Shown here: piece by piece, positions 60,811 to 64,000 of the stretch
Layout of the letters: each line of letters starts with the position of its first letter
Numbering within the stretch: the stretch's first letter is position 1
Assembly: GCA_015689745.1 (NCBI GenBank)
Contig: WVSO01000007.1
Span: forward strand, 1 to 64,000
Reading direction: 5' to 3'
Source: Rhodobacterales bacterium HKCCSP123
GTDB taxonomy: Bacteria > Pseudomonadota > Alphaproteobacteria > Rhodobacterales > Rhodobacteraceae
DNA: 64,000 nucleotides
Made by a program: the position numbers and the translations under genes
Notes under the pieces: model-generated
The model's input: only the letters and a program-made list of their open reading frames with translations
The model's database searches: none
What the model was told of the DNA's origin: nothing

Positions 60811-62667
60811 TCAGTTGCGCCATTCGCGGTCTTCGATTCCGAATTTCTTGATCCTCGAATAGATCGTCGTGGCAGGCACCCCGAGCACCCGGGCTGCGCC
60901 GTTGGGGCCGGAGACGCGCCCCCCCGTCTCGTGGAGGCATGCCACGAGGTTCGCCCTCGCTTCCGCCTGCAAGGTTGCTTCCGACTTGATCTGAGCCGGT
61001 TGCCCGATCGTGGACACCGCCGGGTCGCCGATATCGACGATGAGTTTGCCGCCTTGGGAAATGATCGCCGCGCGCTCGATCACGTTTCGCAGCTCCCGTG
61101 CGTTACCGGGCCAGGAATAGGCCTGGAGTTGCTGCATCGTGCGCTGCGTGATGACATTCCTGGCGCGGTTCAGCCGCATGTTGGCCAGCGACAGGAAATG
61201 GGTCGCAAGCGCCGGGATGTCCTCCCGCTTCTCACGGAGCGGATGGCAGGCAATCGGAAACACGTTGAGGAAGAGAAACAGATCCTCGCGGAAGCGCCCT
61301 GCGTCCACTTCACGTTCGAGGACCTTGGTCGTGGCTGCGATCACCCGCACGTCGATGATGCGGCTCCGGCTATCGCCGAGACGCGTCACCTCGCGGTCCT
61401 GAAGGGCCCGCAAGAGCTGTCCCTGGTGCTCGAGCGGCAGCTCCTCGACGTTCTCGAGGAAGATCGTGCCGCTGTGGGCCAGTTCGAGCTTGCCGGGCTT
61501 GTCTCGCAAGGCGCTCTGATAGGCGCCGCGGATATGTCCGAAAAGCTCCGAGCCCATCGCATCTGCAGGCACGGAACCGCATCGCAGGTGGATCAGGGCG
61601 CGTCGTCGGCGGTCGCTGGCATTGTGGATGGCGTTCGCGACGAGTCCCTTGCCTGTCCCCCTTTCGCCCGAGATCAGGACATTGGCGGAGGTCTTGGCGA
61701 CAAGGTCGATGCGTGTGCGTAGCTGGCGCGTCGCAGGGGCAGTCCCGATGATGTCGTGATGGGCCTGCTCGCTGGTGATCGCTTCCTGCAGGTAGGCGTT
61801 TTCCTGTTCAAGCCGGTCCCGAAGGGCCGCGACCTCTTCGAGCGCCTCGCGGAGGCGGCGTTCGTTCTCCTTGCGCTCGGTGATGTCACGAAAGATCACG
61901 ACGGCACCGGCCAGCACCTGTTGGTCATAGATCGGCGTCGACACGTATTCGACCCGGATCGGCTTGCCATCCTTGCGCCAGAACACCTCGTCCTCGATCC
62001 GGTGCACCTGTTCGAAACGAAAGGACCGGTAGATAGGGCACTCGTGCGAATGGTACACCTCGCCGTTGACATGATGGTGGTGGATCATGTCGTGGATCGA
62101 CTTTCCCATCAGGTCTTCGCTGGTCCAGCCAAGCATTTCCTGCGCGGCACGGTTCACGAAGGTCGTCTTGCCTTCGGCATTGACACCGTAGATGCCCTCG
62201 CCGGCCGCGTTCAGGATCAGCTGGTTCTCGTTCTCCAGCTCGGCGAAGAAGGATTGGGCGCGCTTCCACCCTTCCAGCCCGGCCCGATGCAGTTCCTCGG
62301 TGTCGAAGATCTGTGCCCTGCGCTCCAGTTCGGCGAGATCGACGAGCATCAGAAGGATCGTCGTCTCGTTCGGATCGATCAAGGACCCGCGCAGCTCGCA
62401 GGCCCGGTCGCCATTGGGCGTGCGGAAGCGGAGGTCGCGGGTCCAAGCCTCGCCGCGATGCTCCACCTCCTCCACGAAGATGATGAAGCGCGGCACCTGC
62501 CGCCCGAGAAGCGGGGAGAGCGCCAGCCCCCGTGGCCGGGTCAGGCCCAGCATCGCACAGGCGGCTTCATTGGCGTCGAGGATGACGTCACGCCGCGTGT
62601 CGAGCAGCAGCGCGGCCTCGGGCACGGCGTTCAGGCTGAAGGCAGGGACAGGCGACGATTCGTTCAT
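60811..62667 (-). CDS. PAS-AAA+-Fis regulator (NtrC-family enhancer-binding protein) with altered catalytic motifs
   Basis: A 618-residue protein. PAS 1 spans about 10-110, PAS 2 about 145-262 (with HHHHVNGEVYHSHECPIY), a coiled linker follows, then an AAA+ domain at about 306-540 with Walker A GERGTGKGLVANAIH intact. The sigma-54 contact loop reads GAYQSA (381-386) instead of GAFTGA, and Walker B reads IFLENVEELP where LFLDEIGELP is usual. A Fis-type helix-turn-helix ends the protein (GAARVLGVPATTIYSRIKKFG). ATG 62667 is the start. Divergent from the CmpA/NrtA-like gene, its probable target. Sigma-54-independent action is inferred. Confidence 0.9.
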   Translation of the reverse strand: MNESSPVPAFSLNAVPEAALLLDTRRDVILDANEAACAMLGLTRPRGLALSPLLGRQVPRFIIFVEEVEHRGEAWTRDLRFRTPNGDRACELRGSLIDPNETTILLMLVDLAELERRAQIFDTEELHRAGLEGWKRAQSFFAELENENQLILNAAGEGIYGVNAEGKTTFVNRAAQEMLGWTSEDLMGKSIHDMIHHHHVNGEVYHSHECPIYRSFRFEQVHRIEDEVFWRKDGKPIRVEYVSTPIYDQQVLAGAVVIFRDITERKENERRLREALEEVAALRDRLEQENAYLQEAITSEQAHHDIIGTAPATRQLRTRIDLVAKTSANVLISGERGTGKGLVANAIHNASDRRRRALIHLRCGSVPADAMGSELFGHIRGAYQSALRDKPGKLELAHSGTIFLENVEELPLEHQGQLLRALQDREVTRLGDSRSRIIDVRVIAATTKVLEREVDAGRFREDLFLFLNVFPIACHPLREKREDIPALATHFLSLANMRLNRARNVITQRTMQQLQAYSWPGNARELRNVIERAAIISQGGKLIVDIGDPAVSTIGQPAQIKSEATLQAEARANLVACLHETGGRVSGPNGAARVLGVPATTIYSRIKKFGIEDREWRN

Positions 62668-62868
62668 GGACGGATCGTGCCACATCCGGCGCAAAGGTGT
62701 TCGATTTTTTCGTAATTTACGATCTTTAGTAAACACGCTAAGGATGATGACTGGTTTATATTATTGTTTTTTATAACTTATTTAATTTGCAAAACCTTCG
62801 GCTGCATCGCTTTTTTTCCCGGCAGTGCCTTCTCATACTGCCCGGGACATCCAGCACAGGGGATCAAA
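62668..62868. promoter_or_regulatory. AT-rich divergent promoter region with a 13-bp palindrome
   Basis: A 201-base spacer with a marked AT-rich stretch (62700-62800) against the GC-rich background. TCGTAATTTACGA (62710-62722) is a perfect odd-length palindrome. No -24/-12 sigma-54 promoter (GG-N10-GC) was seen upstream of the binding-protein gene. Confidence 0.55.
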
Positions 62869-64000
62869 ATGTCTTTCAAGAGCCTCGGAAACCCGTTCTC
62901 GGGAGAATCGGATCTTCGCCATGGCGCCGGCTGCCGCTGCGACACCTGCTCGGGCGATCACACCGGCCACAAGCACGAGCACCATGCCGCTCCGGCCCCG
63001 ATGTCGTCGGAACAGATCATGGAACGCGCGATCGAAAGCGCGGTCGTCCGCTCGATATTCGGCCAGAACGACATTCAGAGACGGTCGTTCATGGGGATGC
63101 TGGGCGGCGGTGCAGTCGCGTCGATCCTCGCGTCCGTCTTCCCTCTCGATGCCGCGAAGGCGATGCTGCTGGACGAACTCGGGCCGCCGGAAAAGACCGA
63201 CCTCAACATCGGCTTCGTTCCCATCACCTGCGCCACGCCGATCATCATGGCGCAGCCCATGGGCTTCTACGAGCGCTATGGCCTCAACGCCCAGGTCATC
63301 AAGACCGCAGGTTGGGCCGTGGCCCGCGACAAGTCGCTGTCGGGCGAATACGACGCGAGCCACATGCTGACCCCCATGCCGCTCGCCATGACGCTCGGCG
63401 CGGGCTCGGTCGCGACACCCTACATTATGCCTGCGGTGGAAAACATCAACGGGCAAGCCATCGTCCTGTCGAACGAGCACCTGGACAAGCGTGACCCTTC
63501 GCAGTGGCGCGGCTTCACCTTCGGCGTGCCCTTCGAATACTCTATGCACAACTTCCTGCTGCGCTACTATGTGGCCGAATTCGGGCTCGACCCCGACACC
63601 GACATCCAGATCCGCGTGGTGCCGCCACCGGAGATGGTCGCCAACCTGCGTGCCGGCAACCTCGACGGCTACCTCTCTCCCGACCCGTTCAACCAGCGCG
63701 CCGTCTGGGAAGGTATCGGCTTCATCCACACGCTGACCAAGGACATCTGGGAAGGTCACCCCTGCTGCGCGTTTGCAGCGCCCGCCTCCTTCGCGCAGGA
63801 ATTGCCGAATACCTACGGCGCCCTGCTGAAGGCGATCATCGACGCGACCCAGTATGCCTCCAACCCCGACAACCGGGTCGAGATCTCCGAGGCCATCGCG
63901 CCGGAAAACTACCTCAACCAGCCGGTGCCCGTGATCCAGCAGGTTCTGACCGGGACGTTCGCAGACGGCCTGGGCGAGGTTCAGCGCGTTCCCGACCGGA
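62869..64000 (+). CDS. CmpA/NrtA-family ABC transporter substrate-binding protein, 3' end outside the window
   Basis: Visible 377 codons, open to the window edge. Residues 1-40 are Cys/His-rich (Cys22, Cys24, Cys27, His31, His34, His36, His38, His39), followed by a helical stretch and a twin-arginine-like signal IQRRSFMGMLGGGAVASILASVF (RR at 71-72). The binding domain has LNIGFVPITCATPIIMAQPMGFYERYGL and FGVPFEYSMHNFLLRYYVAEFGLDPDTDIQIRVVPPPEMVANLRAGNLDGYLSPDPFNQRAVWEG, the pattern of nitrate/bicarbonate/cyanate-type binding proteins. ATG 62869 follows GGGGATC. The permease and ATPase would lie to the right. The ligand is not fixed by sequence. Confidence 0.9.
   Translation, partial: MSFKSLGNPFSGESDLRHGAGCRCDTCSGDHTGHKHEHHAAPAPMSSEQIMERAIESAVVRSIFGQNDIQRRSFMGMLGGGAVASILASVFPLDAAKAMLLDELGPPEKTDLNIGFVPITCATPIIMAQPMGFYERYGLNAQVIKTAGWAVARDKSLSGEYDASHMLTPMPLAMTLGAGSVATPYIMPAVENINGQAIVLSNEHLDKRDPSQWRGFTFGVPFEYSMHNFLLRYYVAEFGLDPDTDIQIRVVPPPEMVANLRAGNLDGYLSPDPFNQRAVWEGIGFIHTLTKDIWEGHPCCAFAAPASFAQELPNTYGALLKAIIDATQYASNPDNRVEISEAIAPENYLNQPVPVIQQVLTGTFADGLGEVQRVPDR

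Follow-up and report, generated by a model that had tools for sequence, protein, structure and literature searches.

The window analyzed here, 64,000 nucleotides at the start of contig WVSO01000007.1 of Rhodobacterales bacterium HKCCSP123 (assembly GCA_015689745.1), contains near its right end a gene for an enhancer-binding-type regulator which, judged from homology and context, is the Rhodobacteraceae counterpart of CynF of Pseudomonas pseudoalcaligenes, because its divergent neighbor is a cyanate operon. With moderate confidence, we propose that an ancestral sigma-54 activator has been rewired in this lineage to sigma-54-independent control of cynA, and that it would act as a signal-gated, ATP-binding oligomer on an operator that was kept. 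Sigma-54 independence of the regulator is strongly supported by sequence, because no gene for sigma-54 (rpoN) was found in the genome by three models, the cynA promoter region has no -24/-12 element, and several motor residues have been lost at once. The gene and the domains of its product are as follows.

60811 to 62667, minus strand: cynF-like regulator gene, 618 amino acids, domain order PAS-PAS-AAA+-helix-turn-helix (translation, Pfam, neighborhood).
62338 to 62634, minus strand: N-terminal PAS domain, residues about 12-110 (PAS_8 match at 12-54 and strand pattern of the structure model).
61882 to 62226, minus strand: second PAS domain (PAS-B), residues 148-262 (PF00989, 8.5e-22).
61033 to 61758, minus strand: AAA+ domain, residues about 304-545 (PF00158, PF25601).
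60823 to 60951, minus strand: C-terminal helix-turn-helix region, residues about 573-615 (alignment and model).

The frame is intact over 618 codons, from an ATG at 62667 to a stop at 60811-60813. Pfam recognizes Sigma54_activat (PF00158) at residues 306-472 (9.5e-55), the AAA+ lid PF25601, and the two PAS domains (residues 12-54 and 148-262) that had been described in an earlier reading of the DNA without database searches (the sequence-only reading). In an AlphaFold model the AAA+ domain is well formed, with a predicted local distance difference test score (pLDDT) of about 80-95 in most blocks, and its best PDB matches are the AAA+ domains of FlrC and FleQ.

Motor-residue positions were mapped onto the regulator by alignment. 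Some of their roles are those generally assigned to AAA+ motor residues; others were taken from the available part of PMC7175178.

61648 to 61668, minus strand: intact Walker A, GERGTGK, residues 334-340 (translation, alignment).
61582 to 61584, minus strand: position of the switch asparagine (PspF N64), here Arg362 (alignment).
61510 to 61527, minus strand: L1 loop hexamer GAYQSA in place of GAFTGA, residues 381-386 (translation, alignment).
61450 to 61455, minus strand: Walker B pair Glu405-Asn406 in place of Asp-Glu (translation, alignment).
61327 to 61329, minus strand: position of the sensor-I asparagine, here Thr447 (alignment).
61270 to 61272, minus strand: position of the second arginine finger (PspF R168, NtrC1 R299), here Phe466 (alignment).

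Thus, the intact Walker A (GERGTGK, residues 334-340), the change of GAFTGA to GAYQSA (residues 381-386) and that of the Walker B DE pair to EN (E405-N406), all of which the sequence-only reading had pointed out, were seen again in the alignment with other AAA+ domains. The alignment also revealed what that reading had missed, namely the loss of the switch asparagine, the sensor-I asparagine and the second arginine finger. The first finger (R162-equivalent) is retained as Arg460. With regard to membership of the NtrC family, the protein has the PF00158 domain and Walker A and lacks GAFTGA, the Walker B DE pair, the switch asparagine and the second finger; a family AAA+ domain without GAFTGA places it in the class of GAFTGA-less regulators. 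Because of the EN pair and the missing finger, hydrolysis of ATP by this protein seems unlikely.

To place these changes in context, the protein was compared with its relatives. The gene was found in 29 of 394 genomes in a protein search of the family. A contig scan contributed the best 80 of 345 relatives, some of them loci of the same genomes; the record titles are mostly of genera which we take to belong to Rhodobacteraceae, and two, Oricola and Zhengella, are Hyphomicrobiales. Outgroup proteins came from searches of the class (22 of 385 genomes) and the phylum (32 of 398), with the present genome counted in both. After removal of duplicates, 89 unique Rhodobacteraceae-type CynF proteins (hereafter the clade) were compared with 31 outgroup CynF proteins. 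Exact duplicates, L036-L038, L164, L167-L169 and L184-L194 were left out of this comparison; L167-L169 and L184-L194 are more distant and have no cynA match upstream, and the deep members L036-L038 have E, T and E at the finger position and retain the switch asparagine.

Every scored motor site is intact in all 31 outgroup proteins (29 with GAFTGA, two with GAFSGA). In the clade, the Walker A lysine and the first arginine finger are present in 89/89 and the sensor-II arginine in 86/89, whereas arginine at the second finger position occurs in none (0/89). The switch asparagine (5/89), the sensor-I asparagine (8/89), the Walker B DE pair (19/89) and exact GAFTGA (5/89, plus three GAFSGA) are mostly gone. 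The EN pair is a rare extreme, shared among the 89 by L140 alone, and a later relative, L210, has DN. A later search supplied 22 usable loci (the others were from genomes already used), nine of them exact duplicates; the 13 new sequences repeat the main part of the pattern, with the finger arginine in 0/13, Walker A and the first finger in 13/13, and exact GAFTGA in 0/13. By sequence, the losses that are clade-wide are those of the finger and the promoter (see below), and the catalytic pair was lost unevenly, with the present protein at the far end. The sequence-only reading had treated the protein as a lone oddity and had seen neither that the finger and promoter losses are common to the Rhodobacteraceae CynF clade nor that the neighbor is a cyanate operon; its suggestion of sigma-54 independence stands, backed by the missing rpoN, the missing promoter element and the motor losses.

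The loss of GAFTGA, which the same reading had pointed out, is not the key mark. Five members (L015, L095, L107, L110 and L135) carry exact GAFTGA and all five still lack the finger. This suggests that GAFTGA by itself is an unreliable sign of sigma-54 dependence; in this clade the R168-equivalent position is the cleaner marker. The genome of L015 has rpoN.

A tree was built from 124 rows with the motif columns removed (quick search, with support from the Shimodaira-Hasegawa-like approximate likelihood ratio test, SH-aLRT, only). The Rhodobacteraceae-type CynF clade forms one side of a branch with support of 100, although the rows named as outgroup for rooting did not form one side of a branch. 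The second arginine finger requires one state change on this tree. At least six changes are needed for intact GAFTGA/GAFSGA, six for Walker B DE and four for the switch asparagine, and the sigma-54 promoter changes three times, one of them at the doubtful L107. Considering that the finger changed once and the loop at least six times, the promoter and the finger were probably lost early, at or near the base of the clade, and the loop decayed later and repeatedly. An order-level search found no carrier outside Rhodobacteraceae among the genomes searched, and the branch of the switch was thus not narrowed further.

The genes of Oricola (L137) and Zhengella (L140), whose genomes have rpoN, fall inside the clade, have a one-residue gap in the loop and lack a -24/-12 element upstream of cynA, which suggests that clade-type CynF reached these Hyphomicrobiales by transfer of a self-sufficient module. 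A single conversion in the clade ancestor, from an obligate sigma-54 activator to a sigma-54-independent regulator gated by ATP binding, with the enhancer kept, which then persisted without rpoN and was carried into rpoN-bearing Hyphomicrobiales, is a broader proposal that we hold at about even odds. In the outgroup, L164 (G618), from a genome with rpoN, has GAYPGA and no -24/-12 element, and its ATPase residues are intact and its operator core perfect. Among the 24 outgroup spacers it is the sole one without a strong -24/-12 element and the sole one whose regulator has a broken loop. It may represent a second, independent uncoupling; its genome is 10% contaminated.

The evidence on the promoter comes from the spacer between the regulator gene and its divergent neighbor.

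62668 to 62868, no strand assigned: divergent spacer, 201 bp, without a -24/-12 element towards cynA (promoter scan).
62702 to 62732, no strand assigned: putative CynF operator, with the central palindrome TCGTAATTTACGA at 62710-62722 and degenerate outer half-sites.
62869 to 64000, plus strand: cynA-like substrate-binding protein gene, which runs off the window.

We compared 113 different spacers, 89 from the clade and 24 from the outgroup. The latter represent 24 of 46 outgroup loci (23 of the 31 outgroup rows and L164); the distant loci, L163 and L166 (cynA start unresolved), and L177 and L179-L183 (no cynA match upstream) gave none. The last 300 bp of each spacer were scanned on the cynA strand against dinucleotide-preserving shuffles (plain ones as a fallback), using a -24/-12 weight matrix set up by hand from the consensus, for which the outgroup result served as a positive control. 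A strong near-consensus element lies upstream of cynA in 23/24 outgroup spacers, with at most 1/100 shuffles reaching each score. Only 4/89 clade spacers (L024, L103, L107 and L113) pass at no more than 5/100 shuffles, which is the chance rate. The candidate in L107, the sole one of these four to score 12 or more, lacks the GG of the -24 element and was counted as chance. In the present spacer the best score is 6.2, equalled by 16/100 shuffles, in agreement with the absence of the element noticed in the sequence-only reading. None of the 13 later spacers (0/13) scores 12 or more.

A tandem palindrome of four half-sites, ACGA-N4-TCGT-N5-ACGA-N4-TCGT, is common to clade and outgroup spacers. Its exact form occurs in 38/89 clade and 10/24 outgroup spacers and in no shuffled sequence (20 plain shuffles per spacer). 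The core was found within two mismatches in 82/89 clade spacers versus 0/113 shuffled spacers (one plain shuffle each), and the operator within two mismatches in 12/13 of the later sequences. On account of the conservation and place of this site, CynF probably binds it. Where measurable (20 of the 23 promoter-bearing outgroup spacers), 70 to 121 bp separate the operator from the -24 element downstream of it, which is a classical position for an enhancer. In the clade, the core begins upstream of the cynA start, at a distance of 147-176 bp in the 84 spacers shorter than 230 bp and of 229-243 bp in the five longer ones.

The place of the operator bears on the main rival explanation, according to which the regulator is a repressor: by occupying the operator next to its own start it would repress cynF and perhaps cynA until released by cyanate, with no contact to RNA polymerase. 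This is less probable than rewired activation but deserves serious attention. The clade core is nearly fixed at 40-46 bp from the cynF start (88/89), whereas the best matches in the 24 outgroup spacers, some of them weak and rough in position, range from 30 to 229 bp; loss of power-stroke residues would be no handicap to a repressor; and Caulobacter NtrC, which is GAFTGA-less, is described in the available part of PMC10274813 as both repressing and activating. However, the distance of the core from cynA is large for simple repression, autorepression alone would leave the control of cynA unexplained, and CynF of Pseudomonas is needed for expression (PMC6627978, as far as the text was available).

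Another explanation supposes that the AAA+ domain is in decay, that the regulator is heading for loss, and that control of the cyn operon lies with a different system, for example NtrC. The L1 loop, Walker B, switch asparagine and finger do vary in many directions, AAA+ column conservation is 0.74 in the clade versus 0.81 in the more diverse outgroup, and one of 29 family members (L038) has no N-terminal part in frame (the N-terminus it shows in one alignment is an artefact of frame choice). Against this, Walker A should go as readily as the other motifs in a decaying gene, and yet its lysine is kept in every clade protein, as is the first finger, and sensor II in nearly all. PAS-B is the most conserved domain across the clade, with a mean column conservation of 0.90 over residues 141-272 versus 0.76 in the outgroup. 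Full-length open frames are found in 28/29 family members, the operator core is widely kept, and cynS accompanies the regulator in 104/109 related loci (some genomes counted twice), and four of the five exceptions are located on sequence pieces shorter than 12 kb. Decay of this kind therefore appears improbable.

We then considered the sigma factor itself, using models for the sigma-54 DNA-binding domain (PF04552), the core-binding domain (PF04963) and the full-length protein (TIGR02395). None of the three gave a match in the present genome, which is 99.7% complete by the tool's estimate. Across the family, rpoN passes the cut-off in 126/388 genomes and has no match over it in 262/388; it passes in 36/36 outgroup genomes tested. 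Three family carriers of the regulator gene have partial rpoN matches below the cut-off, at model positions 20-73. In genomes reached through contigs, rpoN passes in 8/18 by the tool's tally, one of these eight, the genome of L138, passing by a 23-bit partial match only.

The idea that the regulator remains an activator of the sigma-54 type, its loop having diverged and its sigma-54 escaping recognition, agrees with its family and domain, with rpoN in 8/29 family carriers, and with a Loktanella plasmid relative automatically annotated as a sigma 54-interacting regulator. It does not fit the failure of three models in a nearly complete genome, the missing -24/-12 element, or the loss of the R168-equivalent finger in 89/89 and 13/13 proteins. 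For this genome the idea is largely refuted and very improbable, as it would need an rpoN gene in the unassembled remainder.

GAFTGA is likewise missing from the other four strongly matching enhancer-binding-type proteins of the present genome (L001, L003, L004 and L005; contigs C108 and C14). One of them, DctD-like, reads GAFPGA, and there are deletions at this place in the NtrC-, NtrX- and second DctD-like proteins, all named by resemblance; three weak matches (L007-L009, about 25 bits) were left out of this survey. These four proteins are retained despite the absent sigma factor.

Several observations weigh against rewired activation. An acidic Walker B pair (mostly DD) is present in 86/89 clade proteins, and by sequence the loss of hydrolysis is therefore not clade-wide; members with DE or DD could still hydrolyze ATP. 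Three of the 89 (L028, L031 and L131) retain both DE and the switch asparagine, and among the 13 later sequences nine have DE and six the switch asparagine. GAFTGA persists in L095, L107, L110 and L135, whose genomes have no full-length rpoN match, which would be odd if the motif had no role; L107 and L110 are from metagenome-assembled genomes, in which absence of rpoN is weaker evidence, and completeness figures are absent for the 18 genomes reached through contigs, including these four. All 8 of the 29 family carriers that have rpoN lack the finger, and Oricola and Zhengella carry clade-type CynF alongside rpoN. The finger change thus does not simply follow the loss of rpoN, and we found no support inside the family for a connection, genome by genome, between the loss of rpoN and that of the loop or finger. 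The outer operator half-sites are degenerate in the present spacer. A search for sigma-70 -35/-10 elements downstream of the operator in 84 spacers gave a median score of 6.1 versus 5.8 for shuffled sequences and no common position, and we therefore propose no specific promoter for cynA. Finally, there was one main evolutionary event, plus L164, and hence few independent replicates.

Taken with these points, rewired activation could have proceeded as follows. The ancestor would have been an ordinary sigma-54 enhancer-binding activator, seated on the tandem palindrome that preceded a -24/-12 promoter. At or near the base of the clade the cynA promoter would have lost this element and the protein its second arginine finger, after which GAFTGA, the switch asparagine and the Walker B pair may have eroded repeatedly and unevenly, so that few members are altered more than the present protein. 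The operator is retained and, in the protein, so are Walker A, the first arginine finger, sensor II, PAS-B and the helix-turn-helix. Gated through the PAS domains by a signal, possibly cyanate and/or nitrogen status, the protein would then act as an oligomer on the operator that binds ATP without hydrolyzing it, with no remodeling power stroke, and may activate cynA through a non-sigma-54 holoenzyme, probably that of sigma-70. An ATP-binding switch is consistent with the invariant Walker A lysine; we favor a signal-gated regulator of this kind because nucleotide-binding residues are kept and power-stroke residues lost, and because PAS-B and the operator are strongly conserved.

The assignment to cyanate metabolism comes from the neighboring genes. 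The 62869 gene product is an NMT1-type substrate-binding protein, and beyond the window on the same contig (C155:64267-67018) cynA is followed by genes for an ATP-binding cassette (ABC) permease, an ABC ATPase, a DUF1348 protein and a cyanase whose product carries both cyanase domains. The regulator gene thus lies back to back with cynA, the first gene of a cynABD and cynS series, as expected of CynF. Its product is homologous to CynF-type proteins of other proteobacteria, whose genes also diverge from cynA and have the same putative operator. Plasmids of Acinetobacter carry sigma-54 family regulators with about 38-42% identity to this protein.

Some further features of the operon were observed. 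At L039:10072-10509, the ATPase gene and the cyanase gene are separated by the DUF1348 (PF07080) gene. The N-terminus of the CynA-like protein (62869-63120) is rich in Cys and His (GCRCDTC, HKHEHH) and is followed by an RRSF twin-arginine-like motif; it could possibly bind metal. In most relatives the match begins at residue 1. A stop-free antisense frame of 1096 codons opposite the cyn genes (L039:6834-10124) was dismissed as a gene, since it seems to have arisen as a side effect of high-GC codon use.

The usual view of sigma-54 activators is that they cannot do without their sigma factor, as initiation needs ATP-driven remodeling, and isolated exceptions are known. In the present case, 113 different spacers allow activator, promoter and operator to be examined side by side, the outgroup represents the ancestral state, and the status of the sigma factor is known for many genomes. 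This gives a testable account of a circuit re-plugged into another holoenzyme. If it is true, the steps by which an enhancer-driven promoter became an ordinary one could be dissected in living sequences. The automatic labels of clade proteins as sigma-54 regulators are probably wrong, and a probable cyanate regulator and its operator can be named for Rhodobacteraceae, a family common in the sea.

A search of open-licence literature, by titles and abstract openings, turned up neither a GAFTGA-less CynF nor a promoter switch of this type among the papers listed, which is weak evidence of absence. Related regulators are known, among which HupR, TyrR, DhaR and VpsR have other sensor domains and targets. 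These four are GAFTGA-defective and sigma-70 dependent, or thought to be so, according to the available part of PMC3162934. VpsR is reported not to need ATP (PMC10274813, in the part available), unlike the present regulator, in whose clade Walker A is invariant; the comparison with VpsR used its chain, and that with TyrR and DhaR used models whose matches fell below the cut-offs. A degenerate enhancer-binding protein of Jannaschia sp. CCS1, a strain with no sigma-54, has a changed GAFTGA, and sigma-70 dependence was suggested for it; in contrast to the present case, the available text of PMC3162934 states no link to cyanate, a lost promoter or a kept operator.

The nearest model for how the regulator may act is NtrC of Rhodobacter capsulatus. 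This protein, like NtrC of other Rhodobacterales and Caulobacter, lacks GAFTGA and acts at sigma-70 promoters, and binding of ATP, not its hydrolysis, is reported to be what it requires (PMC10274813, as available). Compared by description, those NtrC proteins have a receiver domain and a deletion in L1, whereas the present regulator has PAS domains, substitutions in L1 and no second finger.

The closest system by gene content is cynFABDS of P. pseudoalcaligenes CECT5344, in which, as here, cynF is transcribed away from cynA and the cynABD and cynS genes lie on the cynA side. In the available part of PMC6627978, this CynF is described as a Fis-type, putatively sigma-54-dependent regulator with a putative sigma-54 promoter before cynA; it is essential for expression of cynABDS, and the operon is induced by cyanate and repressed by ammonium. 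Compared by description, the present system differs in that it has lost the promoter, rpoN and the motor residues and has a DUF1348 gene before cynS. Thus, the regulator is of a known kind, that of the GAFTGA-less regulators, and what is unusual is that promoter, operator, motor and sigma factor can be traced together.

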